Source of the DNA: Rubellicoccus peritrichatus
Lineage (GTDB): Bacteria > Verrucomicrobiota > Verrucomicrobiia > Opitutales > Cerasicoccaceae
Length of the DNA stretch: 64,000 nucleotides
NCBI RefSeq assembly: GCF_033100135.1
Contig: NZ_CP136920.1
Span: 2,971,001-3,035,000, forward strand
Direction: 5' to 3'
Position 1 is the stretch's first letter; each line of letters starts with the position of its first letter. Shown here piece after piece: positions 1,423 to 30,203 of this stretch. The notes below the pieces were generated by a model. It saw only the letters and a list, made by a program, of their open reading frames with translations, made no database searches and was not told the DNA's origin. The position numbers and the translations under genes are program-made.

Positions 1423-1447
1423 ATATATGGTAATGTCAGTTCCGGGG

Positions 1448-3907: not shown

Positions 3908-3918
3908 TTCAGTTAATA

Positions 3919-5511: not shown

Positions 5512-5559
5512 CGTCTTCTTGGATTGAGTTAAAGTTTGCAGGCATATGGATGCGGAGCA

Positions 5560-5591
5560 GATCTTGATCTACTTATTAGCGTATCAAGATC
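5560..5591. repeat. Intercistronic inverted repeat between sulfatase and GH16 genes
   Basis: GATCTTGAT (5560-5568) and its exact reverse complement (5583-5591) are separated by 14 bases, inside the only sizeable gap (5512-5656) of the minus-strand operon. There is no U-tract, so it is more likely an mRNA-processing or stabilising hairpin, or an operator, than a terminator. The gap could also hold an internal promoter for GH16-GH2-GH86. These roles are inferences. Confidence 0.4.
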
Positions 5592-5656
5592 ACTAAATGT
5601 TCCATAATTGGTAATGTCATATATGTGCCCTGAATTGCATATAATTTTCTCCAGGC

Positions 5657-7327
5657 TTAGTTGTTGCGGTAGGCCGTCCGATGCCACTTGTGATCAGTAA
5701 CAATTGTCGATGGAGGTGCTTCGACGTCGCCTTTGGCTTCAGTGACGAGTTGTTGACACTGTAGCCGCATTTCGGCCAGTACTTTGGCATATGCCGGGTC
5801 GTTGACGAGGTTTTCAACTTCGTAAGGATCGCTTGAAATGTGATAGAGTTCTTCGTAAACTGGAGCTTCTCCTTTTATTGAAGCGGTAAGGCTTGCGTTA
5901 TAATTCTCCCGCATTTCCGGACTCACTTGGTAGAACTTATCTTTGGGAGTGCGCGCCCTTAGATCGAGGTTGTCGTTTTTGAAATAACGGATGTAACGGA
6001 ACTCATCAGAGCGGACGGTTTCGCAGCGTGGATTACCAAAAATATTGGACCAGAGGTTTTCGCCAAAGGCGTATTGGCGCCACTCTTGACTATCGTCACG
6101 CAAGAGTGGGTTGATGTCTGAGCCTTGCATTGTATTGGGGACTTCTATACCTGCGAGGCTTAGAATCGTCGGTGCAACATCGACTGATAAAACCAACTGC
6201 CTCATCCGTTTGCCTTGCTGCTCATCTGCCAGGCGTGGGTCATACATCACGAAGGGAACTTTCAAGCAGGTTTCATAGCATAATGATTTACCGCCGAGAC
6301 CATGTTCGCCATTGAAGATGCCGTGGTCCGAGGTTATAATGATCACAGTATTGTCAGCAATGCCGAGATCCTCGAGTTGCTGGCGCAGTTTACCGATCAT
6401 GCGGTCGATACCGGTGATGGCTTGATACTCGCGTACATTTCGTTCACGAACCCCTTCAGGTTTATCAACATAGTTGTAACCATTTTGGCGCAGTTGCGTC
6501 AGCAAAACATCCGCGGGTAACTTGGGTTTTTTAATATCCTCACGTGCGATGTAAGTCGGAGGTAATGGCAAGCTATCCTTTTGATCCCGATATGCGGTTT
6601 TATAGAGTTCGTCATCACTTTCGCGCATCTCCATTCTTTCCATGCTGAAGCCATGGGGTAGATTCAATGCGATTGATAGGCAGAAAGGTTGGCCATCAGG
6701 ACGGCGTTCAAGGAATTGAACTGCATTATCGATAAAAGCCTCGTTCGATTCCGGATCAAGAAAGGCGAGGACACTTTCAGTCATTACTTCCGCTTGCGTA
6801 TCGACCTTGGCATTGTCAAAGATCTCGTGCTTATCTTTTGGATAAAAGCCGATGTGGTGGTGCCCGGCATACCAATAGTCGAAACTATCTTCCATCAGGC
6901 CAGTGAAGTAGCCTTTTTCACCAATCGGCAAGTGGTTCTTTCCAACATAACCAGTGAAGTAACCATTCTCACGTAGTAAGACCGGATAGGACTTTGCCCA
7001 GGCTTCCGGTGACATGGACGTTCCGGAGTTGAAGTTGATGCCGTGTTTGCGTTCATACTGACCAAGCATGTAGCAGGCTCGGCTTGGAGTGCATATTGCC
7101 GAAGTGACAAAGGCTTGTTCGAAGACATGTCCATCGGCTGCGAGTCGATCCAGGTTCGGCGTCCGGACAATTTCATTTCCCATGAACCCCACTGTATCCG
7201 CACGTTGATCATCCGTGAGGATAAAAATGATGTTCGGTTTGTCGGTGGGGATCGTTTGTTCCTGCTTCATTGCATACAGTCCGTTTGCCAGAACTATCGT
7301 GCAGTATAAAATTACAAATGTCTTCAT
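5657..7327 (-). CDS. S1 family formylglycine sulfatase
   Basis: This 556-residue protein has an N-terminal signal sequence (cleavage near residue 19) and the alkaline-phosphatase-like sulfatase fold. The metal-binding start NIIFILTDDQRAD is followed by the formylglycine motif CTPSR; Cys79 is the residue to be converted. A later ITSDHG motif supplies more metal ligands, and the C-terminus has the conserved YELYHISSDPYE-type stretch. It should hydrolyse a sulfate ester on the galactan or its oligosaccharides in the periplasm or outside. It lies 15 bases after the next sulfatase gene in the operon. It resembles the choline-sulfatase/iduronate-sulfatase side of S1, but the subfamily and sulfate position cannot be called. 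No maturing enzyme (anSME or FGE) is in the window. Confidence 0.9.
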   Translation of the reverse strand: MKTFVILYCTIVLANGLYAMKQEQTIPTDKPNIIFILTDDQRADTVGFMGNEIVRTPNLDRLAADGHVFEQAFVTSAICTPSRACYMLGQYERKHGINFNSGTSMSPEAWAKSYPVLLRENGYFTGYVGKNHLPIGEKGYFTGLMEDSFDYWYAGHHHIGFYPKDKHEIFDNAKVDTQAEVMTESVLAFLDPESNEAFIDNAVQFLERRPDGQPFCLSIALNLPHGFSMERMEMRESDDELYKTAYRDQKDSLPLPPTYIAREDIKKPKLPADVLLTQLRQNGYNYVDKPEGVRERNVREYQAITGIDRMIGKLRQQLEDLGIADNTVIIITSDHGIFNGEHGLGGKSLCYETCLKVPFVMYDPRLADEQQGKRMRQLVLSVDVAPTILSLAGIEVPNTMQGSDINPLLRDDSQEWRQYAFGENLWSNIFGNPRCETVRSDEFRYIRYFKNDNLDLRARTPKDKFYQVSPEMRENYNASLTASIKGEAPVYEELYHISSDPYEVENLVNDPAYAKVLAEMRLQCQQLVTEAKGDVEAPPSTIVTDHKWHRTAYRNN

Positions 7328-7342
7328 CGCCTGTTGTCAGGA

Positions 7343-9190
7343 TTACGAGCTCCCGGCCTCTACTTTGTTTACGTAGACATAGTAGGCACCCAGTTCTAAA
7401 TCGTCGGCTCCATTAAAGGTCGCGGAGAGTGAATTCAGGCCTTCGGGTAAGTCCATTTCGATAATGGTGGAACTTGCTTGAAGGTCAACTGGCACGACTT
7501 GTGTTTGATCTCCTACTTGAAGGGTTGCGGTATCGATTGCCAGAGCGGTTCCGTCTTTATACCAATTGCGATACCAGGGGTCGGTTTCTACTTCATTCCA
7601 CTCAATGTCGTTCCCTTCGAAACCATGGCCTGTTTCGTAGTCAGCTTCCCTTGGCCAGCGTCGAAGTTCGAAGCGATAGCGGCCACTGTCTTTGACGTCG
7701 ATCTCCCAATAGCCGATCATGGGAACGCCTTCGCGAATTTGTCCCTGATGCCATGGCACATCATCCTGGGCTTCAGGATAGCGCCAATCCATGCAGTTAA
7801 GGCGTACTTCACCAGGTCCGTCTTTGGCTCCAAGTGGGAAGGGGATCGGATCATCAGCATCAAGATATACCAGATCCCACCAGTCCTCATAATCTTTGCG
7901 CAATTTCTCAACGACCTCCGGATGATCATTGGAAACATCATGCCTTTGGCCCTTGTCGGTAGACATGTCATAGAGTTCTTTTCCTTCGATTAGGCGCCAG
8001 CGATTTGTCATGACACAGCTTTGACGCCATTTGATGGGTGTAAGGACGCGTTGCGATTCGGTTATCACAGATCGCTCACCCCAATCTGCATCCGGATCTT
8101 TGAGTAATGGTTCAAGGCTTTTGCCATGAAAGTCCATGTTGTCGGTCAGCTCGATATCGCACAGATCAAGTAGAGTGGGCATCATATCGATGTGCGCACT
8201 TAGCTCGGATACATCATGACCGCCACCAATATCACCTTTCGGCCATCGAATGTAAACGGGCACACGATGTCCGCCATCGTAGGCACTGCCTTTGCCTCCA
8301 CGCAGACCAGCATTAAAGCCGTCACGCGGGAACCCTTCCTTGTCCGTCAGCGAGCAACTGGACCCGTTATCAGTCATGAAGATGAGGATAGTGTTTTCTT
8401 CGAGTCCCAACTCAGCCAGTCGGGTGCGCAGTCGGGCAAAGTTATCATCGATGTTCGTAATCATTCCATAGAACCGAGCTACGTAATCTTCAATCGAGCC
8501 CTCGTATTCCTCAAAGTATTTGGCTGGAACATTGTAGGGGCCGTGCGGTGCATTGGGGGCGAGATAACAGAAGAACGGTTCGTCCTTGTTTTCTTCAATA
8601 AAGTCAAGTGCCTGATTAAACCAGACGTCCGTGCAATAGCCTTCGAACTGCTTGGGCTCACCATTGACCTCATAGACATCATCGAAGTAATCATTGCCCC
8701 AATGGTCCGGTTGTTGACCAATACCGCCACCTCCATGTGTGATGACTTCCTCAAAACCACGATCCTGTGGACGATAAGGATAATTATCCCCTAAATGCCA
8801 TTTGCCAAAAAGCCCCGTACGATAACCGGCGTTTTTCAATGCTTGCGGAAGCATCAGGGCTTTTTCTCGGACGATGGATCTTCCGCCAATTGTATGCCAG
8901 ACTCCGACACTGCCGGAATGAAGACCCGTTAATAAACCAGCACGAGTCGGTGCGCATGTGGGTCCGACATGGAAGTCGGTCAGGCGCACTGCCTGTTCGT
9001 GAAATGCATCAATGTTTGGGGTCTTGAGAATCGGGTTTCCTTCGCAGCCCAGGTCGCCGTAGCCTTGGTCATCGGTAATGACAATGACGATGTTTGGTTG
9101 CTTGTTTGTCGTAGTCGAATTGGCCATTCCAATATTGAATAATACAAATGTAGTGATGCCGATAAGAAAAGCTGTTCCGGCCGCGGTCAT
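7343..9190 (-). CDS. S1 family formylglycine sulfatase with C-terminal beta-domain
   Basis: A 615-residue exported sulfatase (signal anchor residues about 4-22). Metal-binding TDDQGYGDLG is followed by CAPTR with formylglycine precursor Cys79, then GKWHLGD and MTDNGSS ligand motifs. Residues after about 450 form an additional beta-rich region, longer than a minimal S1 enzyme, with WRYPEAQDD and RFELRRWPRE stretches that suggest a substrate-facing accessory domain. It lies between two other sulfatase genes with gaps of 15 and 12 bases. It should remove sulfate from porphyran/agar-type chains or oligomers; the position (6-O or other) is unknown. ATG at 9190 is preceded by an AAAGAG purine stretch that may serve as ribosome binding site. 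Confidence 0.9.
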   Translation of the reverse strand: MTAAGTAFLIGITTFVLFNIGMANSTTTNKQPNIVIVITDDQGYGDLGCEGNPILKTPNIDAFHEQAVRLTDFHVGPTCAPTRAGLLTGLHSGSVGVWHTIGGRSIVREKALMLPQALKNAGYRTGLFGKWHLGDNYPYRPQDRGFEEVITHGGGGIGQQPDHWGNDYFDDVYEVNGEPKQFEGYCTDVWFNQALDFIEENKDEPFFCYLAPNAPHGPYNVPAKYFEEYEGSIEDYVARFYGMITNIDDNFARLRTRLAELGLEENTILIFMTDNGSSCSLTDKEGFPRDGFNAGLRGGKGSAYDGGHRVPVYIRWPKGDIGGGHDVSELSAHIDMMPTLLDLCDIELTDNMDFHGKSLEPLLKDPDADWGERSVITESQRVLTPIKWRQSCVMTNRWRLIEGKELYDMSTDKGQRHDVSNDHPEVVEKLRKDYEDWWDLVYLDADDPIPFPLGAKDGPGEVRLNCMDWRYPEAQDDVPWHQGQIREGVPMIGYWEIDVKDSGRYRFELRRWPREADYETGHGFEGNDIEWNEVETDPWYRNWYKDGTALAIDTATLQVGDQTQVVPVDLQASSTIIEMDLPEGLNSLSATFNGADDLELGAYYVYVNKVEAGSS

Positions 9191-9202
9191 TCTCTTTTCA
9201 AT

Positions 9203-10720
9203 TTATGAGTTTTTCGGCGCAGTACGCTCACCGCCTTCACGGATTTCCATGTATCGTTTGAACATGGCTTCAGCGCGTTCCTTATACTCAGGATTGTTGA
9301 TTAGATTTTCGCTCTCTTTTTCCTGAGGATTGGTTTCGAGGTTAAAGAGTGCGACCGGATCCATTTGAGTAAGATGGTGATTGCTATCGATGATCAGCTT
9401 CCATGGGCCTTGCCTGAACATCAACTCATGCCTGCTGCCTGACTGAAGCATCAGCTCCTCACGCGATTCGAAGTTCTCACTACCTCGGAAAGCGGGTAGT
9501 AAATTCCATGAATCCATGGCTTGATGGTCTTCAAGGTTTTCGCCGGTTATCGCAGCGATGGTTGCCAGGATATCGGTGCCGTTGACCAATGCATCCGAGC
9601 GCGAGCCGGCTGGGATATGTCCCGGCCATACTGCGATAAAGGGGACGCGTTGGCCGCCTTCATGTGGAGCGTTTTTATTGCCTCGCCATCCACCACTGGA
9701 GAGATGGCCGTTCTCATGGTTTTTACTATTCCAGAGGCCTCCGTTGTCGGAAGTAAAGATGATCAGTGTATTGTCATACTCGCCGGTTTCCTTGAGGGCA
9801 TCGACAATTTCCTTTACCTCCAAGTCGAGTACACGAACCATGTCGAGATGTCGTGTGATTGTCGTGCCTTTGATAGGCTTGCCGTCGATTGAATCTGGTG
9901 GTGTGTGTGGAATGTGAACAGCCGGTGACCAGTAGCAGAGGAAAAAAGGTTCGTCTGCATTTGAGCGGATGAAGTTAGCTGCCTTTTCAGCAAGGATCAC
10001 ATTCATCTCGGTGGCGTCCCACTCAGAATCGCCTGTTCCCGGACCTTTGTCAGAGACGAAAAAGGGATCTTTCGCTGTGTTTTTATTCAAATTAATGAGC
10101 TTGGAGTTTTCGCTAAGCGGGTGCCACTTTCCATTTTCATAAGCGACGTAGAATGGTCCCTGAACACCAGTTGGCAGCGTGAAGTCATAGTCAAAGCCCA
10201 TGTCTTGCGGTCCACCGGAAATCCACTCCGTGGCATCGACATCAAGATCGGTTTCTCCGCGATCATTGCCGCGATAAAATTCCTTGCTGCTTTTCTTGTG
10301 GAAATCTCCACCCAGGTGCCATTTGCCAACAAACCCTGTTTTGTAACCTGCGTGTTGGGCAACCCTGCCAAGGGTGGCATCCTCTGGTTTAATAGGTGTC
10401 TCCCGGAATGAACCCCAGACTCCCCATGGAGCGTAAGAGCGGTAATTATAATTGCCGCTCATCACAGCGTAGCGAGTTGGTGAGCAAAGCGAAGTCGGGG
10501 AGTGCGCATCGGTGAACCACATGCCTGCTTCAGCGAGCGCATCGATGTTGGGAGTTTCCGCAAAGGGCTTTTGTCCTCCAGTGCGCTCCTTATGTTGAAA
10601 GCCGATATCGCCCAGACCAACATCGTCTGCCATAATCACGACGATGTTAGGCGTTTCTGCCTGGAGGCTGCTCGCCATGATTGACCAGCAAAGTATCCAT
10701 TTATAAATCCGAATTCTCAT
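9203..10720 (-). CDS. S1 family formylglycine sulfatase
   Basis: A 505-residue sulfatase with signal peptide (cleavage near AETPN, residue 21). Key motifs are ADDVGLGDIG, the formylglycine motif CSPTR (Cys79), GKWHLGG and TSDNGG. It resembles arylsulfatase A / GalNAc-6-sulfatase-like S1 enzymes. It lies 21 bases downstream of the symporter gene and 12 bases before the next sulfatase, so it is the second gene of the operon. Three adjacent sulfatases with different surroundings of the active site suggest that different sulfate positions or chain contexts are served; this is inference. Confidence 0.9.
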   Translation of the reverse strand: MRIRIYKWILCWSIMASSLQAETPNIVVIMADDVGLGDIGFQHKERTGGQKPFAETPNIDALAEAGMWFTDAHSPTSLCSPTRYAVMSGNYNYRSYAPWGVWGSFRETPIKPEDATLGRVAQHAGYKTGFVGKWHLGGDFHKKSSKEFYRGNDRGETDLDVDATEWISGGPQDMGFDYDFTLPTGVQGPFYVAYENGKWHPLSENSKLINLNKNTAKDPFFVSDKGPGTGDSEWDATEMNVILAEKAANFIRSNADEPFFLCYWSPAVHIPHTPPDSIDGKPIKGTTITRHLDMVRVLDLEVKEIVDALKETGEYDNTLIIFTSDNGGLWNSKNHENGHLSSGGWRGNKNAPHEGGQRVPFIAVWPGHIPAGSRSDALVNGTDILATIAAITGENLEDHQAMDSWNLLPAFRGSENFESREELMLQSGSRHELMFRQGPWKLIIDSNHHLTQMDPVALFNLETNPQEKESENLINNPEYKERAEAMFKRYMEIREGGERTAPKNS

Positions 10721-10741
10721 GTGTACAATATATTATGAGTT

Positions 10742-12775
10742 TTAACTATCGAGTGGTATTCCTGCTTTTTCATCTGCAGCGGAATGATGCCCGTGAACGA
10801 CACCATCGTCGACTTCATTGACATCCGCTTTCTTCACATCGCGGATCAGGCGAATGACATCACGTAATCCTCCTAGACTATACCAGATCGCAGTAATGAC
10901 TGCGACGACTCCCTGGATGCCCAGAATAACGACCCACCAGTTCTTCCAGGTTTCGGATGAGACATCGTGAGTGAGATTATAAGCTGTGCCTGAAACGAAT
11001 GCTATGGACCAGCCCCCCGTCCAGATAATCATCGAGAAGTAAATGACTTTGTCGAAAAAGGAGAATTCATGCGTGATGCCTATTTTTCTCAGAATCCATG
11101 ATTGCTGACCGGTTGGTTTCTTGTGGTCGTCTCCAATTGAGTATTTTCCACGATGGAGAAGTTGGTCCATGTTGAAGCGGCCTTCGGAGGTCAATAGAGA
11201 GACTATGATGAAGATGGTGTAAGATGCGGCGACAGCGAAGATGGAGAGATGAATGCCATTGATGACCGTATCCGTGCCGGGAAATTTCATCTCGGGCCAA
11301 ATCTGACGGGCAACGATGGAACTGACGGCGAGTGTGCTTCCAGTAATCATCCCAGCCCAGGCACCTTGGGTTGTCGAGCGACTCCAATAGAGTCCTCCAA
11401 TCACCGCACAGGATGCGCCACCGATATAAATTGCTCCGGTAATCTCGAACCACATGAAAATGAAGTCTTTCATCGTCCATATGGAGCTGAAGAGGTAAGC
11501 AAAGATTCCCAGGCCGACGATGGAGAACCGCAAATACTTCAGATGCTGCTCTTTGGTAAAAGGTTTTTTGCGGAAGGGCATGATGATATCCTGGATGAAT
11601 ATTGATCCCCATGAATGGTAGGCTGAATCATCCGTCGAAACCGAAGCACCAATCATATAAATGGCGAATAATCCCATTAACCCGGCTGGAAGCATGTTCC
11701 CAATCACAATCGGGACAAACATCTGGGACTGTAGATATGGGTCGGAGATCATGTTCACGCTGGCCTGAATAATTTCCTGCTCAGCTGCATATTGTGCATT
11801 CCAAACCAATGTGTAAGATGCGATAGAAACTGCCATTGAGCCGAGACCAATCATGAGCCAGCGCCAGCTGCTTAGGATGTTACCCATTTTTGCCTCATGT
11901 GGTGTTCGGGCCGCCGTCATGTAGCCGGCACCTCCCTGCCAGATTCCTGTTTTGGCCACAAAGAGAATTGCCATCATGACGAAATAAGGCACTCCAAAGT
12001 CGGGTAGACCTTCCTGCCTGAATGGGTTCATCATCGAAACGCCTTGTTTGCGTTCCAAAGTTGGAAGCAGGTCCGGGGTGGTTGCGACATCGACGGTTTC
12101 AGAAGCCATCAGCGTGTCCATGATGGTATTCCAGCCGAACTTATACATGACAAACCAGAGAATGGCCAAGGTTGCGGCACTGGCGATGATGCCCTGGAAA
12201 AAGTCAGTCACCATGATTGTTATCTGGCCGCCTGCTATCGCCAGGGTCACTCCGGCAGCAACGAGCACAAACATGAGCGTGTGATAGGTCGAGAGCTCTA
12301 GGCCGAGGAAATTGAATTCTAGTGGCAGGCCGAGGAAGTAGATGACGAAACGGGTCGTGACCATCGGGAATACCGCGCAATTGAGAATTCCCGAGATGAA
12401 CGCAGTTACCCCGGCCATGACGCGGAAGTTCCGGCTGTATCGCACTTCGAGGAATTGGGCCATCGTGAGCACGCGGGTTTCCCTGTAGCGGTAAGTGACC
12501 CAACCCGACAGGGCTAGAACAATGCCCACCGGCATCAGTAGCATGCCCCACCAGTTTCCCCCGATTCCATTACGATAGGTGGCCTCAAAACCGCCTACTG
12601 CGCCAATGGCAGATACAAATGCCATGCTTTGGGCAATGGTTAGCAAATAGCGTCCAGCGACGCGTTCAGATGAGAGAAACCCTGCAACGGACTTGGTCAT
12701 CCGGTTGGTGAAGACCGAAATTCCGATCAGAATGACCACAAATAGGGCGATGATTATCCAGTCAAGTGTTTGCAT
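10742..12775 (-). CDS. Sodium:solute symporter (SSS family), sugar uptake
   Basis: About 677 residues with some 14 hydrophobic helices, starting MQTLDWIIIALFVV. The motifs GGFEATYRNGIGG, RYRETR and a TM segment with SSIWTMKDFIFMWFEITGA match Na+/sugar symporters of the SSS family. I chose ATG at 12775 over an upstream ATG at 12817 because the extra 14 residues (hydrophilic, Asn/Cys rich) do not look like family N-termini. It is the first gene of the operon and probably imports mono- or oligosaccharides released by GH86/GH16 and the sulfatases. No TonB receptor or SusD is present. The upstream divergent region likely carries its promoter and a LacI operator. Confidence 0.88.
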   Translation of the reverse strand: MQTLDWIIIALFVVILIGISVFTNRMTKSVAGFLSSERVAGRYLLTIAQSMAFVSAIGAVGGFEATYRNGIGGNWWGMLLMPVGIVLALSGWVTYRYRETRVLTMAQFLEVRYSRNFRVMAGVTAFISGILNCAVFPMVTTRFVIYFLGLPLEFNFLGLELSTYHTLMFVLVAAGVTLAIAGGQITIMVTDFFQGIIASAATLAILWFVMYKFGWNTIMDTLMASETVDVATTPDLLPTLERKQGVSMMNPFRQEGLPDFGVPYFVMMAILFVAKTGIWQGGAGYMTAARTPHEAKMGNILSSWRWLMIGLGSMAVSIASYTLVWNAQYAAEQEIIQASVNMISDPYLQSQMFVPIVIGNMLPAGLMGLFAIYMIGASVSTDDSAYHSWGSIFIQDIIMPFRKKPFTKEQHLKYLRFSIVGLGIFAYLFSSIWTMKDFIFMWFEITGAIYIGGASCAVIGGLYWSRSTTQGAWAGMITGSTLAVSSIVARQIWPEMKFPGTDTVINGIHLSIFAVAASYTIFIIVSLLTSEGRFNMDQLLHRGKYSIGDDHKKPTGQQSWILRKIGITHEFSFFDKVIYFSMIIWTGGWSIAFVSGTAYNLTHDVSSETWKNWWVVILGIQGVVAVITAIWYSLGGLRDVIRLIRDVKKADVNEVDDGVVHGHHSAADEKAGIPLDS

Positions 12776-12801
12776 ATTGTATGTGTTGAGCCTTTCATTA
12801 T

Positions 12802-12811
12802 TACACGTGTA
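12802..12811. promoter_or_regulatory. Candidate LacI-type operator (10-bp palindrome)
   Basis: TACACGTGTA is a perfect palindrome centred on CG, just upstream of the symporter start at 12775. LacI-family operators are usually even palindromes with a central CG. Assignment to the nearby LacI gene is inferred from position only. Confidence 0.35.
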
Positions 12812-12983
12812 TAGCAATTAGATTAATAAGGCTCACGGGTGTAACTTTTAAGGGGATATCATGGTAATTTCATCTGGAACCCGTTTTGTGCAGAAATTTT
12901 GCGTTTCCGGGTCAATTTATTGGATCAAACACCTCGAAGACCAATCTTTGCCAGCCAGTGAAACAATTTGGCATTATTTGCTG

Positions 12984-12997
12984 AAATGATGTCATTT
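12984..12997. promoter_or_regulatory. Candidate operator, AAATGA-TG-TCATTT inverted repeat
   Basis: Six-base inverted arms separated by two bases, in the middle of the divergent intergenic region. The arrangement suits a dimeric helix-turn-helix regulator; which one is unknown. Confidence 0.3.
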
Positions 12998-13258
12998 ATG
13001 GCGCCTTTTCGCCAATTTGAATAACGATTCAGGGGTTTAAAGAGGTGTTTAATCTGCTTTGGGCATGCTAAATTACATCCTTTGGGTCGCATTTTCTAAC
13101 TTTTCCAAAGCAATTGTTGATTCATATGATGCGTAAGTAGAAGCGACTTTAATGAAAGATGGTTCTAATGAACATCTGTTGGCCTGGACTCATCGCCAGG
13201 TATATTTGCAAACTCCATGACTCAAGCGACATAACCTTTACAGTTGATTTTGGAAATT

Positions 13259-15052
13259 ATGATTACCCGTTACACTTTTCCGCCAGTGAGGGTCTGGCCC
13301 TGCTTGTTACTGGCGTTGATTATGCCTTTGGGGCTGGCTGCCAAGGAAAGACCGCCCAATGTCGTCCTTATCTTAATTGATGACTTAAGCTACTTCAGTT
13401 GGCCTGCCTATGGCGCAAAGACGGTTAGTTCCGGGCAGGGGCATTTCAAGGATGTCCCTGTTGAGATGCCGAACATTGATCGTCTGGCCGAAGAGGGAGT
13501 TCGGTTCAATCAAGCTTACGTCCATCCGATTTGCGAGCCAACTCGTGTTGCCCTGATGACTGGTATGCACAATGGGCGTAACTTTCTTGCTCCGAAAGCG
13601 GTTCATGAATCTCAGATCACATTCAGTGATGTTTTCAAAAAAGCCGGTTATGCCACAGGTATGTATGGCAAATGGAAACAGACTCGTGGCACGCCTTCAG
13701 TTCCGGGCAATGAATATATCTCACAGTTTGGTTGGGATGATTACCTATGTTTCGATGTCACCAATGATGCGAAGGGGTGGAGGCGTTACCTTGATCCGAC
13801 TTTGTTTAAGAATGGAGAGCAGTTGCATTATACCAAAGATGATTTGGACCCACTGACCGGGCGTCGCTATTACGGTCCTGATCTTTGCAATCGTGCCGCC
13901 TTGCAATTCATCGATGACCATAAGGACGAGCCTTTCTTTCTTTATTATCCCATGATACTTGTCCATGACGAGCACACGCCGACTCCGGATACGGTTCCTG
14001 CTTCGCTCTATGATGATTTTGATACGAAGACCAAGTTGGAAAAATGGTTATTGGCTGGTGATGATCGTACCTATTTTCCTGATATGTTGAAGTACATGGA
14101 CAAGATGATCGGTAATATTATCAACAAGCTGGATGAGGATGGTTTGTTGGACGATACGTTGATCATTGTCATGGGCGACAATGGGGGAAAAGAGGTTTTC
14201 GAATATACGATGGATGACGGCACCGTCTTCGGAGGTGGAAAAGGGCACAACCGTTTTCATGGAGAGCAAATCCCTTTGATTTTTACCATGCCGGGTGTCA
14301 TTCCTCAAAGTTCGGAAGGCGGTATGCGTGAATATGACGGCCTCTTTGACGGTACGGATATTTATCCAACGCTCATGGAGGCCTGCGGTATTGAATTACC
14401 CAATGCTGGCAAAATCGATGGAGTCAGCGCCTGGCAGCAAATCATCGGGAAAGAGGATGCTGGTCATCGCGATGTCATTTACAAGTGGGCGAATGGAAAT
14501 AGCCGCTATGATGATCTGGATACTCAGGTGGAATTTGCCCATAATGCTGAGTTCAAACGCTATGCGCCACATGATAAGTATCCCAGAGGCCGCTTTTTCG
14601 ATTTACGGACAGATCCTTATGAGCATGCGGGGGAAAAAGGGAGAAAGGTGTCATGGGATAATCACTTTCATAGTGGCCTCGACCTGGATAGTCTCACTCC
14701 CGAGCAGCAGGCGGCATTTGATATGCTTGGAGAAGTGTTGGAGGAAAACGCTTATGTCCCTGTAGAGGCACTTCAGATACAAGGTGATAAAACGGCGCGG
14801 GTCGGTCACGAAACACATCTGCACTGCAGAGTGATTCCAGCAAATGCGATGCGCAACAATGTCATATGGGAATCGAGCGATCCTGCCATTGCGACCGTGG
14901 ATAAGTTTGGTGTCCTAACTCCACATGCTCCAGGTGAAGTGGAGATCAATGTCTACTCATGGGAGGATGCAGAGCCGTTGTCGAACAACGGTACGGTCGA
15001 ATACAGGCGCGATGGAATTAAAGACATCCTAGCAGTGAATATTGTGAAGTAA
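13259..15052 (+). CDS. S1 sulfatase with C-terminal bacterial Ig-like (BIG2) domain
   Basis: About 597 residues from ATG at 13259, which has a GGAA purine stretch upstream; a TTG at 13244 is an alternative start. The signal peptide ends near LGLAAKE. Sulfatase motifs are LILIDDLSY, CEPTR with formylglycine precursor Cys92, and MGDNGGKE. The glutamate in CEPTR is less usual than serine or threonine at that position. The last ~90 residues (after about 505) read as a BIG2-type Ig fold (IPANAMRNN, WESSDPAIATVDKFG), which could hold the enzyme at the cell surface or bind polysaccharide. It is transcribed away from the symporter operon, so it may be expressed separately under the same regulators. 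Confidence 0.88.
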   Translation: MITRYTFPPVRVWPCLLLALIMPLGLAAKERPPNVVLILIDDLSYFSWPAYGAKTVSSGQGHFKDVPVEMPNIDRLAEEGVRFNQAYVHPICEPTRVALMTGMHNGRNFLAPKAVHESQITFSDVFKKAGYATGMYGKWKQTRGTPSVPGNEYISQFGWDDYLCFDVTNDAKGWRRYLDPTLFKNGEQLHYTKDDLDPLTGRRYYGPDLCNRAALQFIDDHKDEPFFLYYPMILVHDEHTPTPDTVPASLYDDFDTKTKLEKWLLAGDDRTYFPDMLKYMDKMIGNIINKLDEDGLLDDTLIIVMGDNGGKEVFEYTMDDGTVFGGGKGHNRFHGEQIPLIFTMPGVIPQSSEGGMREYDGLFDGTDIYPTLMEACGIELPNAGKIDGVSAWQQIIGKEDAGHRDVIYKWANGNSRYDDLDTQVEFAHNAEFKRYAPHDKYPRGRFFDLRTDPYEHAGEKGRKVSWDNHFHSGLDLDSLTPEQQAAFDMLGEVLEENAYVPVEALQIQGDKTARVGHETHLHCRVIPANAMRNNVIWESSDPAIATVDKFGVLTPHAPGEVEINVYSWEDAEPLSNNGTVEYRRDGIKDILAVNIVK

Positions 15053-15086: not shown

Positions 15087-16133
15087 TTACTTCTTTTTGG
15101 GAGGAGCAGTTGATTCGCGCTGGACCAGTGTCGTGGGAAGAATTGTCATACCGGTTAGTGGATGACCTTCCTTTTTATTCGTCTTCTTATCAACGGATTC
15201 GATCAGTAGTTCAAAGGATTTCTTTCCGACCTGTTCATGGTGCATATCGATAACCGTAAGGGGCGGATCGCTGAGGATGGAAAGCGGCTCATTGGAAAAA
15301 CCGATGACCGATATATCATCAGGAACCCTATAGCCCATCTTGCGTGCACGGCGAATAGCGGCCACAGCCATTTCATCATTTCCACAAAGAATTGCAGTTG
15401 GGGCGGTCTTTGGGTTCTTTAAAAGCTGTTCTGCACCGGCTTCCGCTTTGGGGATTTTCCATTCACATTCAAGAATGTGCCCAGGCTGTAAGCCGAGGTG
15501 TAATTCTTCCAAGCTCTTTAAAAAACCTTGTTTGCGTCGAATGCCAGCCTCGCTGCGGGAGTCACCTCCAATATAGGCAATCTTTTTATGACCAAGCTCG
15601 GCCAGGTGTTTCATGGCAAGTATTGCGCCTCCTTCATGATCAGGCTCCACCTCACAGGCACTCAGATCAGGATGGCTATTGGAGCAGATCAAGGGAAGGC
15701 CATATTTCTCCGTTTCCTGACGAAATTTCATCGCGGTCTTCTGGGGCGGTTGCAAATTGATGCCTAGGATGCCCTCAACCCGATGGCCTAAAAAACTGCT
15801 GAGTGGAGACATTACGTCTTCAGAATTTGGCACGACATCGACTTTCACGCTGTAATCGGTTTCCCGCACAGCATCAAAAGCGCCTTTCAGCATTTCGCCG
15901 ATCCAATCGACGATATGCTCATCCCCAATAATGATTCCGAGGGTAAAGGTCTTCCCGGTCTTCACAGCCATCGCGAGCTGATTACGGCGATAGCCCATAT
16001 CCTTTGCGGTTTCTATTACCCGCTCGGCAGTTGCCTCCGATATGCCCAGTGCCCGATAGCGATTATTGAGGACAGAGGAGACTGTCATCCGCGATAAATT
16101 CAAACGCTCAGCGATATCGATTAACTTAACCAT
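15087..16133 (-). CDS. LacI family transcriptional regulator
   Basis: A 348-residue protein. The N-terminal helix-turn-helix (residues 3-25, starting LIDIAERLNLSRMTVSSVLN) and hinge helix are followed by a periplasmic-binding-protein-like effector domain (about 62-340). Its likely role is to repress the polysaccharide locus until a sugar released from agar/porphyran binds. It is convergent with the Ig-domain sulfatase (34-base gap) and follows the AraC gene on the same strand by 191 bases. Palindromes at 12802 and 12984 are candidate sites. The effector is not known. Confidence 0.93.
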   Translation of the reverse strand: MVKLIDIAERLNLSRMTVSSVLNNRYRALGISEATAERVIETAKDMGYRRNQLAMAVKTGKTFTLGIIIGDEHIVDWIGEMLKGAFDAVRETDYSVKVDVVPNSEDVMSPLSSFLGHRVEGILGINLQPPQKTAMKFRQETEKYGLPLICSNSHPDLSACEVEPDHEGGAILAMKHLAELGHKKIAYIGGDSRSEAGIRRKQGFLKSLEELHLGLQPGHILECEWKIPKAEAGAEQLLKNPKTAPTAILCGNDEMAVAAIRRARKMGYRVPDDISVIGFSNEPLSILSDPPLTVIDMHHEQVGKKSFELLIESVDKKTNKKEGHPLTGMTILPTTLVQRESTAPPKKK

Positions 16134-16324: not shown

Positions 16325-17194
16325 CTATTTGTTCGTGAGAATTTCACTCCTTTTGCATTTTTCACGGGATTCTGTCCGAAATACAACAGGTGGTTGTCCG
16401 AAATGTGTTTTGAAAGCACGGTAGAAATTGGAAAGATCGTGAAACCCGCACTCGAAACAAATGGCAGTGATCGTGCGGTCTGTTTCTTTCAGGAGATGGG
16501 CGGCGTAGTTGAGACGGAGCCGTCTGACTTGATTGAGCCAGGTATCTCCCGTTACTTCTTTGAATATTTGTATGAAGTGCCGTTTACTCAAGCCAGCCTG
16601 TTTGGCTGCTTCATCAAGTTGTTGTTCTGCGTAGAAATTCCGCTTTAGGTCTTCCCATACTTGAACGACCCTTTGCCTGCTCGATGAATGTTCCCTCGTT
16701 GATGGATTGGGTGCACTTTGACGATAGCGAACGATGTTGCACATCACTCTTTGAGTCAGGCTTGAAATCATGAGTTCGTGACCTTCAAAACAGGAAGTTT
16801 GTTCAAAGAGAATCTGCCTGAGTGGCCTCTCGAAAAGTGCCTTCACTGGGATATTTGCAATTAAGGCGAACGCTTGCAGCTGTCTCATGCTGTTCCTTGA
16901 TGTAAATATCTTCCAGTCAATACAAAGCGCATACAGGCACAGGGGGTCCCTTCTGGCATCTTCTATTTTGTGAGGCATATGAGGCGGGATGTAAACGAGG
17001 CATTCTTTGTTGAGTCGATAGTTCTTTTTTCGAGTAAGGAGAGTGCCTGAGCCACTGATAATAAAGATAATCTTAGAGAAGGAATGGTTCAGCCAATCCA
17101 TTTTAAAGCCCTGACTGTGGTGACTCTCAAGAATATGAATGCCATAGCTTGGCATATGAACCGCGAGCGGTTGAAGTGTTTTTTGAAGGGGCAT
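16325..17194 (-). CDS. AraC family transcriptional regulator
   Basis: A 289-residue protein. Residues about 15-150 are a cupin-like sensor domain (YIPPHMPHKIED). Residues about 190-275 hold the two AraC helix-turn-helix motifs (LDEAAKQAGLSKRHFIQIFK and ICFECGFHDLSNFYRAFK). It is divergent from the Rieske fusion gene with about 90 bases between the starts, the usual layout for an AraC activator and its target. It could also act on the polysaccharide operon upstream. Its ligand could be a sugar, aromatic or other small molecule; the sequence does not say. Confidence 0.92.
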   Translation of the reverse strand: MPLQKTLQPLAVHMPSYGIHILESHHSQGFKMDWLNHSFSKIIFIISGSGTLLTRKKNYRLNKECLVYIPPHMPHKIEDARRDPLCLYALCIDWKIFTSRNSMRQLQAFALIANIPVKALFERPLRQILFEQTSCFEGHELMISSLTQRVMCNIVRYRQSAPNPSTREHSSSRQRVVQVWEDLKRNFYAEQQLDEAAKQAGLSKRHFIQIFKEVTGDTWLNQVRRLRLNYAAHLLKETDRTITAICFECGFHDLSNFYRAFKTHFGQPPVVFRTESREKCKRSEILTNK

Positions 17195-17274
17195 TTAATG
17201 TTTTTCTATCAAAATCACCAAATTTGCAAAGTCATTTAGCGGGAATTGCAAAGGAATCTATCGGCGTTTTTTGT

Positions 17275-17289
17275 TATAATTCATATATG
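17275..17289 (+). promoter_or_regulatory. Consensus -10 box directly before the Rieske fusion start
   Basis: TATAAT at 17275-17280 ends six bases before the ATG at 17287. Transcription starting about seven bases downstream would begin at the start codon itself, suggesting a leaderless mRNA; no Shine-Dalgarno is seen. A clear -35 box at 17 bases is missing, as expected if the divergent AraC protein activates. The next -35-like TTGCAA (17246-17251) is 23 bases away, too far. Confidence 0.4.
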
Positions 17290-19932
17290 AAAATAACTGA
17301 AGAGATGCCCTTTCAAGCGTTATGCAAAACCTGGCAGCCGGTATGCCTTGAGCGCGACCTTCAGCAACGGGAGATCATCAGTTATACACTTTTGAATGAG
17401 GAAATCGTTATCGCGAAGCTACCTGACGGCATTCTGGCTGCTCGTGATTTATGCCCTCATCGTGGCGCGAAATTCGGTATCGGTCAGATCGTAAACGGCA
17501 ACTTACAATGTCCTTATCATGGCTGGGAGTTTGATTCCGCAGGATCCTGCCAGGAAATTCCGTCCATTCCGGGAGACTCTCCAATAAAGCAACAGGCCTG
17601 CCTCAAGCGCTTCGATGTGCAATTGAGGTATGGTATGGTTTGGGTGAAACTGGATGATGATGAGATGGCTCCTTTGCCCGAAATACCTGAGTTTGAAAAT
17701 GATTGGACTTATCTTGTTGGTGATCCAGTGCCGACAGGCGCTGGGTTTCGCCGTGAGATTGATAACTATCTGGATATGTCTCATTTTGCTTTTGCCCATG
17801 CAAAAACACTTGGTGTTGCCGCGGCCAAAGTCATTACGGGCATCGATATTACACACTACGAGGATGGCTTTCAGATGGACGCACCTTTCCCCGAACTGGA
17901 AGGTGCTGATACGGGAAAATTGTCTCGGGGCCATCACAGAAGGCAGAGGATTTATCTTCCGAATTTTACTACGATCCGCCAGAGCTGGAATGATGGTGAC
18001 GAGCGTGTCCTGGTCCATATACCCAGTCCCAATACACAGGAATCATGCACCATGTTTTGGGCATTGGCCATTTCTCCAAACTTCGATGGTCCTCGGCCCG
18101 AAGATCAAATGCGTTTTGCGGTTTCGGTTTATGCGGAAGACAAGGAAATGATGGAGAATCAGCGGCCTGCTGAAGTTCCTATTGGAAACGAAATTGGCGT
18201 CATGGTACCTGCCGATCGATTGCCGATTACTTACAAACGTGCCATCCGTAAATTCGTTCTGGATGCTATGTTACCGCCGGAAGATCGTTTGAAGCCGCTT
18301 GAGCAAAGGGAAATCGTTGACAGTTACTTGATTCTTTACGGTTCGCAAACAGGAACGGCGGAGCGCCTCGCCTGGGATTGTCGAAGGGAATTGCAACACA
18401 TGGGCGTCACTTCCGAAGTCATGGAGATGGACCAGTTTATGAGCTCAATTGTTGATAGCGGCTTGACTGGTGATGACAATATTCTGACGAGCACGGTCGA
18501 ACGTAAACTTATCGTGATTACTTCGACCTACGGCGTTGGGGAAGCACCTGACAATGCGCGTCGTTTGCTTGAGCATCTTAGATCACTTCCTCATGACTCC
18601 ATCCGTAACCTTAGCTACGCGGTTCTTGCCTTAGGGGATCGGAGCTATGTCAATTTCTGCCAGTGCGGCAAGGATTTCCATAATCAATTGGAAACCATTG
18701 GTGGAAAACCAATATGGCCCATTACATTAGCGGATACAGATGTGGATGAATCCTTCTCATCTTTCATGGAGCAGTTTCGGGAGCGGTATCAAGCTGAACT
18801 CAAGGAGATTTCATTAACGATTAACGGCAAAGCGTATTCCGGGATACAATCAGGGGGTTCATTACTTCATACTTTGCGTAATCAAGGCATTAATCTGGCT
18901 TCTGCGTGTGAAGGCAAGGGCAGCTGTGGCAGCTGCGTTTGCTCTGTTCGGACGGAAACAGATGATCTTGTCGCCGGAGTTACCGGTGCCGAAAGAATGT
19001 TACTTGGCGATGAGCGGATTACATCCGGAAAACGTCTGGCATGTCAGGTGAGTGTTATTGAGGACTTAAAGCTGGAGGTCGATCCGGTTGCTTTAAGTTC
19101 AACACAAACCAGCTTTCGTGTGTTGAGGAATGAAAACGTGGCGACCTACATCAAGGAGCTCGTGCTTGAACCTGACGATGCGGATACCGCATTTCGTTTC
19201 AAGGCAGGGCAGTATATGCAGTTTGAGATTCCGGAATTTCAGATAGATTACGGTAAGATTGATATTTCCAATCCATATCGTGATATGTGGGAGAGGCAGA
19301 ATCTTTTTGAGCTGAAAGCGGAAAACCATTCGAGCACACGAAGAGCTTACTCAATGGCGACAAATCCCGATGTTGATCCACATGTATCTTTCAATGTTCG
19401 GATTGCATTACCTCCAGGTAACAATGGCGATCCTGTTGGTGTCGGTTCTTCGTATTTGTTTAATCTCAAGCCGGGAGACAAGATAACGGGAATTGGTCCG
19501 TTTGGAGATTTTCTTCCTAAAGAGTCGGATAAGGAAATGATCTATCTTGGTGGTGGTGCTGGTATGGCTCCCTTGAGGGCGCACCTGTCCTACCTCTTTG
19601 ACACCTTAAGAACATCGAGAAAAGTCAGTTTTTGGTATGGTGCACGTTCGAAGAACGAGTTGTTTTACCAGGACTATTTTCAAAAGCTGGTTGAGTCTTT
19701 TGAGAACTTCAGTTTCCATGTCGCCTTGTCGGAACCAAGCCCTGCTGATGATTGGGATTCTCATACCGGTTTTATTCATGAAGTGCTGCAACGCGAGTAC
19801 TTGCAGTCCCATCCATCACCAAAGTCTATCGAATACTACTTATGTGGTCCGCCTCAAATGGTCCGTGCTGCTAACGGCATGTTGGATGAATTCGAGGTAA
19901 GCAAAGATAATATTGCCTACGATGAGTTTTAA
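17287..19932 (+). CDS. Four-domain self-sufficient Rieske oxygenase (Rieske / flavodoxin / ferredoxin / NqrF-like reductase)
   Basis: An 881-residue fusion starting at ATG 17287; an in-frame upstream extension to 17149 overlaps the AraC start and lacks homology-like sequence. Residues 15-120 are a Rieske 2Fe-2S domain (C56-x-H58, C75-x2-H78). Residues 140-340 are a mononuclear-iron domain of the VanA-like O-demethylase type, with N160, bridging D163, H166 and H171; D273 may be the carboxylate ligand. Residues 347-500 are a CPR/sulfite-reductase-like FMN domain (YGSQTGTAE, STYGVGEAP, LGDRSYVNF). Residues 505-600 are a plant-type ferredoxin (C541, C547, C550, C586). Residues 605-881 are an NqrF-like FAD/NADH reductase (RRAYSMA, GGGAGMAP, CGPPQ). 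Electrons should flow NADH to FAD to 2Fe-2S (and FMN) to Rieske. Substrate unknown; an O-demethylase or hydroxylase is likely. It overlaps the thioesterase gene. Confidence 0.85.
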   Translation: MKITEEMPFQALCKTWQPVCLERDLQQREIISYTLLNEEIVIAKLPDGILAARDLCPHRGAKFGIGQIVNGNLQCPYHGWEFDSAGSCQEIPSIPGDSPIKQQACLKRFDVQLRYGMVWVKLDDDEMAPLPEIPEFENDWTYLVGDPVPTGAGFRREIDNYLDMSHFAFAHAKTLGVAAAKVITGIDITHYEDGFQMDAPFPELEGADTGKLSRGHHRRQRIYLPNFTTIRQSWNDGDERVLVHIPSPNTQESCTMFWALAISPNFDGPRPEDQMRFAVSVYAEDKEMMENQRPAEVPIGNEIGVMVPADRLPITYKRAIRKFVLDAMLPPEDRLKPLEQREIVDSYLILYGSQTGTAERLAWDCRRELQHMGVTSEVMEMDQFMSSIVDSGLTGDDNILTSTVERKLIVITSTYGVGEAPDNARRLLEHLRSLPHDSIRNLSYAVLALGDRSYVNFCQCGKDFHNQLETIGGKPIWPITLADTDVDESFSSFMEQFRERYQAELKEISLTINGKAYSGIQSGGSLLHTLRNQGINLASACEGKGSCGSCVCSVRTETDDLVAGVTGAERMLLGDERITSGKRLACQVSVIEDLKLEVDPVALSSTQTSFRVLRNENVATYIKELVLEPDDADTAFRFKAGQYMQFEIPEFQIDYGKIDISNPYRDMWERQNLFELKAENHSSTRRAYSMATNPDVDPHVSFNVRIALPPGNNGDPVGVGSSYLFNLKPGDKITGIGPFGDFLPKESDKEMIYLGGGAGMAPLRAHLSYLFDTLRTSRKVSFWYGARSKNELFYQDYFQKLVESFENFSFHVALSEPSPADDWDSHTGFIHEVLQREYLQSHPSPKSIEYYLCGPPQMVRAANGMLDEFEVSKDNIAYDEF

Positions 19933-20317
19933 ATTTCGAACGCAGGTCTCCAAGGCTGATTGTGATGGGCTGAAGCAGTTTATTCGTTCTCGCCAGGTTG
20001 ATTATTGCCAGAAGGCGCTCGAAGCGAACTGGTCGGCTCAAGGCTTACCTGTTGTTTTGCAGCGAAATACCTACGACATCTATTTCGAGCTTGTTCATTG
20101 CCACTGTGATTTTCGTGCACCAATCAAGGTCAACGATACATTGGATATACATGTTTCATTATTCAAACACGATCATCATTCTTTGGTCTACGACTTCAGC
20201 CTGGAGCGCGATGGGAAAGTTGTGGGAGCAACTTTGAGTATTCATCGCTCCCACTCTGTGAAAACGAACGAAGTCTGTGGTATTCATCCTGAATTGATCG
20301 AAAAGATCCTGGCCTAG
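19922..20317 (+). CDS. Hotdog-fold acyl-CoA thioesterase-like protein
   Basis: A 131-residue protein whose ATG at 19922 lies inside the last codons of the Rieske fusion gene (11-base overlap), so translation is probably coupled. It has the length and pattern of a 4HBT/YbgC-like hotdog thioesterase: YDIYFELVHCHCDFRAPIKVND in the central part (shown in two pieces: YDIYFEL, then DFRAPIKVND) and FSLERDGKVVGATLSIHR near the end. The usual N-terminal Asp of the 4HBT motif is replaced by KADCDGLKQF, so activity is not certain. The tight coupling suggests it handles the oxygenase substrate or product, perhaps a CoA thioester. Confidence 0.65.
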   Translation: MSFKFRTQVSKADCDGLKQFIRSRQVDYCQKALEANWSAQGLPVVLQRNTYDIYFELVHCHCDFRAPIKVNDTLDIHVSLFKHDHHSLVYDFSLERDGKVVGATLSIHRSHSVKTNEVCGIHPELIEKILA

Positions 20318-21428: not shown

Positions 21429-22082
21429 TTACGCTTTATGTGCTATTTCCTCCAGCGAGCTTTCCTTGATTTCTTCCAGTGCCTGAAGCATGGCCTGTCC
21501 AATAAACTCCATTGCTGCGACCTGCTTAATCTTTTTCCGGCAACTGGAGAGTTCTTCCGGGACAAAAACTGTGCGGTGGAGTTTGCAGGCTTCCATTAAG
21601 GAGATAATAGCAATGTCACGTGGATCAGGTATTGTGTCAGTCAGGATGATCTTACGAATGCGTGTGCGGACTTCCATCTCTTCCTTACCTTCAATCATTG
21701 GGTAAGTGCGTTCGCCCTTGATCCAGAGGAATGAGCTGTCTTTTTCTTCAAGGATACCCTTGTAGACAAGACTTGCCAGGAGGCGTGGTTCGATATCACG
21801 TGCTTTTAAGGTCAGTTTGGCGATTGCTTGAGTGATCTGCATCTTGTCTCCAGCAATTTTCAGTGCCGCAATCGCTTCGTTGAGCAATGTGTCACCGGTA
21901 GGCTCGGTGTTCAAAAGCATCAGATTGTCCACATCGGTGTCGACGCGATTCATGAATGCCAACTCAAGCAGAAGGGCTCCGGCAATGGCGCACTCAAAGG
22001 ATTGCTCCTCAAGGTTGCGGTGCATTTTCCCGGTTTCGTCATTCAGGGCAAGGAGGGTGATTTCTTCGGCAAATCTGAGCAT
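21429..22082 (-). CDS. GPP34 (GOLPH3-like) family protein
   Basis: A 217-residue, mostly helical protein. The start LRFAEEITLLALNDETGKM, the helix AIAGALLLELAFMNRV and PTGDTLLNEAIAALK are characteristic of the GPP34 family. Eukaryotic GOLPH3 binds phosphatidylinositol-4-phosphate and retains Golgi glycosyltransferases; bacterial members are of unknown function and may bind membranes. It lies 103 bases downstream of the NtrC-type regulator on the same strand and 131 bases upstream of the methyltransferase gene. Nothing ties it functionally to either. Start chosen because the family motif begins only a few residues in. Confidence 0.8.
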   Translation of the reverse strand: MLRFAEEITLLALNDETGKMHRNLEEQSFECAIAGALLLELAFMNRVDTDVDNLMLLNTEPTGDTLLNEAIAALKIAGDKMQITQAIAKLTLKARDIEPRLLASLVYKGILEEKDSSFLWIKGERTYPMIEGKEEMEVRTRIRKIILTDTIPDPRDIAIISLMEACKLHRTVFVPEELSSCRKKIKQVAAMEFIGQAMLQALEEIKESSLEEIAHKA

Positions 22083-28474: not shown

Positions 28475-28533
28475 GCGAGTTTTATCTCAGGCAGTCGTAA
28501 ACTGCTCTATAAGGTCAGGTCTTGCTTTGGCGT

Positions 28534-30153: not shown

Positions 30154-30203
30154 TTAATGAAATCGAGTTTGCCATGGGCTGAATCCTCGCAAGCCTGCTC
30201 GTT

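Follow-up and report, generated by a model that had tools for sequence, protein, structure and literature searches.

Can a Rieske oxygenase carry its whole redox chain within one polypeptide? The question is raised by a single gene in the window analyzed here, i.e., the whole stretch of 64,000 nucleotides from positions 2,971,001 to 3,035,000 of contig NZ_CP136920.1 of Rubellicoccus peritrichatus (GCF_033100135.1), in which a frame of 882 codons on the forward strand (17287–19932) runs without interruption to a TAA stop and encodes 881 residues. According to the relevant passages of a 2025 review (PMC12445004, Biochemistry), no self-sufficient Rieske oxygenase system has been identified yet. 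From the sequence analysis we consider it fairly probable that the protein is a natural, catalytically self-sufficient Rieske monooxygenase, built by addition of parts, which would pass electrons from NADH through FAD, a 2Fe-2S cluster, FMN, and the Rieske cluster to Fe(II), demethylation being its likely reaction. The chain has four parts, namely a VanA/NdmA-type Rieske oxygenase (residues 1–338), a flavodoxin of the cytochrome P450 reductase (CPR)/sulfite reductase type (346–500), an NqrF-type 2Fe-2S ferredoxin (507–600), and an FAD/NADH reductase (605–881), and its features lie in the window as follows:

17287..19932, + strand: Rieske oxygenase–flavodoxin–ferredoxin–reductase fusion gene, 881 amino acids (open frame; order of the Pfam matches)
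17329..17568, + strand: Rieske [2Fe-2S] domain, residues 15–94, ligands C56/H58/C75/H78 (PF00355, E = 2.4e-18)
17740..18255, + strand: catalytic domain VanA_C, residues 152–323, presumed iron ligands H166/H171/D285 and bridging D163 (PF19112, E = 1.3e-15; alignment to NdmA, 2.5e-40)
18322..18786, + strand: FMN-type flavodoxin domain, residues 346–500, with three FMN-loop motifs (PF00258, E = 8e-22)
18805..19086, + strand: NqrF-type [2Fe-2S] ferredoxin domain, residues 507–600, C541/C547/C550/C586 (PF00111; best solved match NqrF, 4e-10)
19099..19929, + strand: FAD/NADH reductase domain, residues 605–881 (FAD_binding_6 and NAD_binding_1; fold match to NqrF FAD domains; tree)

The original prediction, made from the letters alone, placed a Rieske oxygenase, a flavodoxin, a 2Fe-2S ferredoxin, and an NqrF-like reductase in one 881-residue chain, and the uninterrupted frame together with the Pfam and NCBIfam matches bears this out. 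A Pfam search of the full domain order, which had been proposed along with it as a check, finds all six families in sequence: Rieske 15–94, VanA_C 152–323, Flavodoxin_1 349–486, Fer2 512–589, FAD_binding_6 680–742, and NAD_binding_1 754–862. Each match exceeds its curated cut-off, the weakest being FAD_binding_6 (26.1 vs 21.1) and Fer2 (32.6 vs 21). The cofactor motifs that had been listed are all at the residues given for them (C56, H58, C75, H78, H166, and H171; YGSQTGTAE at 351; C541/C547/C550/C586; RRAYSMA at 685; GGGAGMAP at 755). The list omitted D285 as the third iron ligand and D163 as the bridging residue, along with two more FMN loops, STYGVGEAPDNA (413) and LGDRSYVNF (449), which complete the set; every expected metal ligand is kept. 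The reductase and ferredoxin, which are separate proteins in multi-component Rieske oxygenases, share one frame with the oxygenase here.

It should be considered whether such a frame could be an artifact. With the base composition of the window, and the bases taken as independent, 881 codons would stay open by chance with P of ~3e-20, so that a chance open frame is excluded. The fusion could instead be inactive or accidental, two genes having been joined by error or by recent read-through, in line with the single complete copy found in the genomes searched and with a Shine-Dalgarno-like AAGGAG at 18802, at the flavodoxin–ferredoxin joint. However, no ATG, GTG, or TTG occurs within 66 bases after this site, and the first in-frame start (TTG, residue 530) would cut the ferredoxin domain. 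The four parts of the gene are alike in GC (0.45–0.49) and third-position GC (0.44–0.52), no stop intervenes, and the source genome is a single contig, which makes a chimeric assembly unlikely. The ATG start matches that of a homologue, "MKITEDMPF", from the metagenome-assembled genome (MAG) Planctomycetota bacterium NORP49 (L022, NVWA01000038.1); the oxygenase–flavodoxin joint recurs in this second genome. As all ligands are kept in addition, we regard an inactive or accidental fusion as very improbable.

The oxygenase part contains the CxH and CxxH Rieske ligands, the 2-His-1-carboxylate site, and the bridging Asp that characterize Rieske non-heme iron oxygenases. The roles of H166, H171, and D285 (iron ligands) and of D163 (bridging) are presumed here from other Rieske oxygenases; residues 56, 58, 75, 78, 163, 166, 171, and 285 are invariant in all 12 rows of an alignment of the window protein with 11 homologues. 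By sequence, the nearest solved oxygenases are the methylxanthine demethylases NdmA/NdmB, followed by SxtDIOX/SxtT and dicamba O-demethylase. The same enzymes are recovered by fold from an AlphaFold2 model of residues 1–505 (15 aligned rows; mean predicted local distance difference test, pLDDT, of 76.7 for the best and 57.7 for the worst of five models), with template-modeling scores (TMt) of 0.76 for NdmA, 0.79–0.82 for GxtA/SxtT, and 0.66–0.76 for dicamba monooxygenase, at identities of 19–29%. Among the 25 NCBIfam families shown for the fusion protein, no oxygenase model reaches its cut-off. A second Rieske and VanA_C protein is encoded by a 432-codon frame at ~1.111 Mb of the source genome (L004/L061); it is ~27–30% identical to the Rieske part and has no fusion partners.

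In the flavodoxin part all three FMN loops are intact, as in the diflavin enzymes CPR and CysJ, and FMN binding is predicted. Among solved structures it is closest to the FMN domains of a sulfite reductase flavoprotein, a nitric oxide synthase (NOS), a diflavin reductase, and a P450 reductase; the alignment to the sulfite reductase flavoprotein (CysJ) extends across the second and third loops, and that to the NOS across all three. The CPR-type FAD/NADPH domain, FAD_binding_1, is absent from the Pfam matches of the fusion protein, with FAD_binding_6 of the NqrF type present instead.

The description of the C-terminal part as an NqrF-like reductase stands as far as similarity is concerned: residues 506–881 score as NqrF with the NCBIfam model TIGR01941 (407.9 bits vs a cut-off of 295), and in the full-length model the fold of the FAD/NADH domain agrees with that of NqrF FAD domains (TMt of 0.92–0.96). 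By tree, its placement is different. In a tree of 30 rows, 15 NqrF-type rows, labeled so by the span of their matches and the absence of a desaturase part, separate from the window domain with 100/100 support, and the latter falls within a group of 14 reductases, every one of which has a desaturase-like fusion partner. Its exact place within this group is unsure, because the window row is on a long branch (0.71) and the nearest forks are supported only by 82/82 and 88/93. The FAD/NADH domain is 54–59% identical to those of the 14 loci confirmed to carry the desaturase part, and the source genome itself holds one desaturase–Rieske ferredoxin–reductase fusion (L002, 762 amino acids, ~4.896 Mb), 57% identical over residues 603–881. 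The tree placement and this fusion in the same genome argue that the reductase is kin to soluble oxygenase partners and not to the respiratory Nqr complex. The N-terminal membrane anchor of NqrF is not found in the fusion protein, where the TIGR01941 match begins at position 30 of the model and the flavodoxin precedes the ferredoxin domain.

A reading as an Nqr subunit or operon was rejected, given the missing anchor, the position in the tree, and the lack of a second one covering the Fer2 part among the matches listed for the genome (other nqr genes were not searched for). A match to residues 446–881 with an internal stop in another genome (G723) proved to be an ordinary NqrF-like gene with NqrE- and NqrD-looking neighbors. 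The fatty-acid-desaturase-like proteins with a C-terminal NqrF-like FAD/NADH reductase recur in the order and the phylum (14 loci: L002, L011–L013, L015–L017, L019–L021, L045, L054–L056), and in L002 (58–2346) a Rieske ferredoxin lies between the desaturase-like domain and the reductase. Such proteins may represent another type of oxygen-activating enzyme that is self-sufficient.

How the parts came together is suggested by the relatives. The MAG of Planctomycetota carries an oxygenase–flavodoxin fusion that is 57% identical to the window protein over residues 1–497, and its NqrF-like match sits on a different contig. This relative came from a scan in which six short peptide patterns were matched exactly against 84,980 species genomes; the scan returned no stand-alone homologue, an absence that says little. 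Homologues of the oxygenase as a stand-alone protein occur in 10 of the 383 other genomes of the class (E up to 1e-50), while the search of the phylum (E up to 1e-45) gives them in 6 of 386 genomes, all of the same order and all among the ten. The oxygenase part of the window protein is 66% identical to that of the MAG and 52–57% to the stand-alone ones. As the fusion in the MAG suggests, the joining of flavodoxin and oxygenase was apparently a separate event. The simplest history is probably that an oxygenase became an oxygenase–flavodoxin, to which a reductase of the desaturase-fusion lineage was then added. Two genomes, G126 and G435, were considered as holding further fusions, having long frames (473 and 666 codons) around the oxygenase, and were set aside, the extra part being upstream and no flavodoxin match being reported.

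In the proposed mechanism, NADH would reduce the FAD, from which electrons would move one at a time to the 2Fe-2S cluster of the ferredoxin type; this cluster would reduce the FMN domain, and the FMN would in turn reduce the Rieske cluster. As in other Rieske oxygenases, D163 would link the Rieske cluster with the mononuclear iron of the adjacent subunit of a trimer, the site of O2 activation. The order of the domains along the chain is the reverse of the proposed electron path.

An alternative that retains self-sufficiency is that electrons go straight from the NqrF-type 2Fe-2S domain to the Rieske cluster, with the flavodoxin as an ancestral leftover or an extra electron store. Such a route has a parallel in NdmD, which uses its plant-type ferredoxin domain to dock onto NdmA without an intermediary, as described in the corresponding passages of PMC12445004 (NdmA being the closest solved oxygenase), and it is compatible with a flavodoxin that seems to have come with the oxygenase, prior to the reductase. 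However, in the MAG the flavodoxin is the sole fused carrier and the NqrF-like match lies on another contig, so that there the flavodoxin is the likely donor, and all three FMN-loop motifs are intact in the window protein. We consider direct reduction by the ferredoxin domain unlikely.

Information on the reaction and the substrate comes from the enzyme itself and from the surroundings of the gene, in which the following features were located:

1..15052, both strands: polysaccharide cluster, with a beta-porphyranase-like gene, GH2, GH16, three sulfatases, and an SSF symporter on the − strand and one more sulfatase on the + strand (Pfam)
15087..16133, − strand: LacI-family regulator that may control the adjacent polysaccharide cluster (PF13377, PF00356)
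16325..17194, − strand: divergent AraC-family regulator with an AraC_binding (cupin-type) domain (PF12833, PF02311)
17195..17286, no strand: region of 92 bases between the divergent AraC and oxygenase genes, a probable control region (coordinates)
19922..20317, + strand: hotdog (4HBT-type) thioesterase-like gene, 131 amino acids, whose start overlaps the stop of the oxygenase gene (ATGAGTTTTAA)

A promoter scan found no promoter-like site in 17195..17286 (3 in total vs 5.2 in shuffled sequences), terminator-like sites number 9 vs 3.9 in shuffles and lie mostly within genes, and Rfam and tRNA scans of the window gave no match. The thioesterase-like gene is barely above the cut-offs of PF13279 (26.9 vs 25.5) and PF03061 (20.9 vs 20.6) and far below that of TIGR00051. 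No catalytic-domain model matched the porphyranase-like gene; it runs past the window edge, and the whole gene, taken from the genome, matches Porphyrn_cat_1 (8e-16) and BPA_C (2e-7).

Eleven homologous loci were read with their flanks (L022 and L031–L040, of which L033 and L034 are short), and in nine of them a relative of the AraC regulator, 27–37% identical, is near the oxygenase. It is the divergent neighbor in seven (L022, L034, L035, and L037–L040), lies ~1.2 kb away in L032 and ~2.7 kb away in L036, and was not found in L031 and L033. The same search gave no match to the LacI regulator, the sulfatases, or the thioesterase in these loci. A short MetE-like (Meth_synt_2) gene is located 3′ of the stand-alone oxygenase, on the same strand, in L035, L037, L039, and L040, the match in L035 being split in two; L032 and L036 have a URO-D-like gene near the oxygenase instead. 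A link to folate-independent methionine synthases (PMC7857596) was dropped as a general explanation, because the word Rieske does not appear in the main text of that paper and because Meth_synt_2 matches in the window genome are confined to one 791-codon frame.

Oxidative demethylation with release of formaldehyde is likely, since N-demethylases are the closest of the solved enzymes and the group that follows includes O-demethylases. The proximity of the gene to the porphyranase-like/GH2/GH16/sulfatase cluster points weakly to an O-methylated sugar of a red-algal galactan as the class of substrate, and O-demethylation of such a sugar is the reading favored here. Taken together as one proposal, namely the first natural self-sufficient Rieske oxygenase with FMN as the immediate donor of the Rieske cluster that O-demethylates a red-algal galactan sugar other than 6-O-methylgalactose, these elements are rather doubtful.

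Several findings weigh against the reading developed above. The structural models are too weak for domain contacts to be discussed: the full-length model has a mean pLDDT of only 58.2, its oxygenase half being unreliable with an alignment about two rows deep, and in the better model of residues 1–505 the pLDDT falls below 50 around the iron site (162–170, 177–186, 198–209, and 293–311). The fold alone does not settle demethylation, because SxtT and GxtA, which are as close by fold as NdmA, are hydroxylases, as the title of PMC7293229 indicates. The FMN could be a side path of the electron flow. The complete chain was found in none of the 176 other genomes of the order, 383 of the class, 386 of the phylum, and 9 of the family (overlapping sets, which become 177, 384, 387, and 10 with the window genome), and none of 72,556 plasmid records covers 80% of the fusion protein. 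As to the surroundings, two regulator genes stand between the oxygenase and the polysaccharide cluster, and the stand-alone homologues have MetE-like genes beside them in 4 of the 11 loci and URO-D-like genes in 2. Finally, a second locus at ~4.70 Mb of the source genome combines a P450, a diflavin reductase, a zinc alcohol dehydrogenase (ADH), and an esterase, with a GH42-like gene adjacent, and this separate P450 locus makes 6-O-methylgalactose probably not the task of the Rieske fusion.

The P450 of that locus is the sole P450 match in the genome and aligns with PDB entries 6g5o/6g5q at 5e-93, the next best match being at 8e-39; we take these entries to be the 6-O-methylgalactose demethylase of Zobellia. 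The row of esterase, zinc ADH, diflavin reductase, and P450 occupies 376–5372 of L071 (~4.697–4.703 Mb), with the diflavin reductase in the place of the ferredoxin and ferredoxin reductase of the Flavobacteriia. In porphyran-degrading Flavobacteriia, the P450 that demethylates 6-O-methyl-D-galactose is accompanied by GH2, GH16, sulfatases, an esterase, and an ADH, according to the pertinent part of PMC10033563. The GH2, GH16, and sulfatase setting is common to the two systems; the P450 works with a separate ferredoxin and reductase, unlike the one-chain Rieske enzyme of the window.

The Rieske fusion might O-demethylate 6-O-methyl-D-galactose, either alongside the P450 route or in its place; this sugar was the first idea suggested by the porphyranase-like cluster. 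Such a role would fit the porphyranase-like gene, GH2, GH16, and four sulfatases within ~16 kb, and also porphyran, which contains this sugar and for which demethylation by a P450 with ferredoxin and ferredoxin reductase is published (PMC10033563, in part). However, the genome has its own P450–reductase–ADH–esterase locus, much like the published arrangement, and the oxygenase–AraC pair is found in relatives without a visible polysaccharide cluster in the stretches read. The idea is weakened accordingly, and we hold such a duplicated route to be quite unlikely; for 6-O-methylgalactose, the P450 locus is a better candidate than the Rieske fusion. The latter may act on a different methyl ether from red-algal galactan, or on a substrate that has no relation to the cluster.

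The last of these cases, a non-sugar substrate such as an aromatic methyl ether or an N-methyl compound with the neighboring cluster being coincidental, is a possibility of some substance, although we do not favor it. Judging by their titles, the closest characterized folds have methylxanthines, saxitoxins, dicamba, and guaiacol as substrates; the overlapping thioesterase-like gene could be a sign that the pathway includes a CoA thioester; and the neighbor common to the homologous loci is the AraC regulator, not the LacI one. However, the identity to the characterized enzymes (19–29%) is too low to carry over a substrate, and the oxygenase gene of G126 has an alpha-L-arabinofuranosidase gene running straight into it, which suggests sugars. 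Both of these alternatives concern the substrate and are compatible with the self-sufficient mechanism.

Three other regions of the window were recorded apart from the fusion gene. The region 21429–22082 (− strand) encodes a GPP34 (Golgi phosphoprotein 3-like) domain protein, here in a bacterium. In 25244–27511 (− strand) a single frame contains a squalene/phytoene synthase domain and, after it, a flavin amine oxidoreductase domain, which looks like a fusion enzyme of isoprenoid metabolism. The region 28522–31202 (+ strand) encodes an AMP-binding enzyme and then a 3-beta-HSD-family dehydrogenase, a pair that we take to be reminiscent of OleC/OleD of long-chain olefin synthesis.

With the self-sufficient Rieske monooxygenase as the preferred reading, the protein can be compared with known systems. 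With the two- and three-component oxygenases VanA, NdmA, and DdmC it has in common the CxH...CxxH ligands, the 2-His-1-carboxylate site, the bridging Asp, and the fold. We know of no FMN flavodoxin domain in these systems. NdmD contains a Rieske domain and is not known to have a catalytic iron domain or a flavodoxin. The VanA, NdmA, and DdmC systems obtain electrons from separate reductase or ferredoxin proteins, whereas the window protein has the carriers in the same chain; NdmD resembles it in being a multi-domain NADH reductase with a 2Fe-2S domain, which serves NdmA/NdmB, but there the oxygenase is a separate protein (PMC12445004, in the parts on these systems). The self-sufficient P450s (CYP102/P450 BM3, CYP116B) likewise combine an oxygenase and its full redox chain in one polypeptide; their oxygenase is a heme enzyme, whereas the window protein is a Rieske non-heme iron oxygenase with both FMN-type and 2Fe-2S domains. 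In P450 BM3, too, an FMN domain follows the oxygenase. NqrF, the NADH-oxidizing subunit of the Na+-translocating NADH:quinone reductase, has the same Fer2, FAD, and NAD domains, but the window protein lacks the membrane anchor, is fused to an oxygenase, and falls outside the NqrF-type rows of the tree. The desaturase–reductase fusions have the closest FAD/NADH domain and are also oxygen-activating enzymes fused to their own reductase, with a desaturase-like domain (and the Rieske ferredoxin in L002) where the window protein has the Rieske oxygenase, flavodoxin, and Fer2.

The original prediction had called the domain combination, to its knowledge, undescribed, and this agrees with the open full-text literature, where among the matches listed no natural self-sufficient Rieske oxygenase or Rieske–flavodoxin fusion was found, as well as with the part of PMC12445004 cited at the outset. 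Rieske systems with separate components are described in parts of PMC5209329 and PMC12746152. Outside that literature, in subscription papers or sequence databases, a fusion that lacks the flavodoxin may already be on record. The kind of oxygenase is known, and the principle of self-sufficiency is known from the P450s; it is the combination that is new.

The multi-component nature of Rieske oxygenases is an obstacle to their use, and artificial fusions have been proposed, as discussed in part of PMC12445004. A natural single-chain example would offer a template for linkers and for the choice of partners, as well as a direct test of whether FMN feeds a Rieske cluster, and the stand-alone, half-fused, and fully fused relatives form an evolutionary series in which the gain in coupling at each fusion step could be tested. 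To our knowledge, the demethylation of methylated algal sugars is known only from P450s. If the substrate is indeed a methylated algal sugar, the fusion would represent a second enzyme class for that step, and it would give the P450 sugar demethylases a Rieske counterpart within the same cell.

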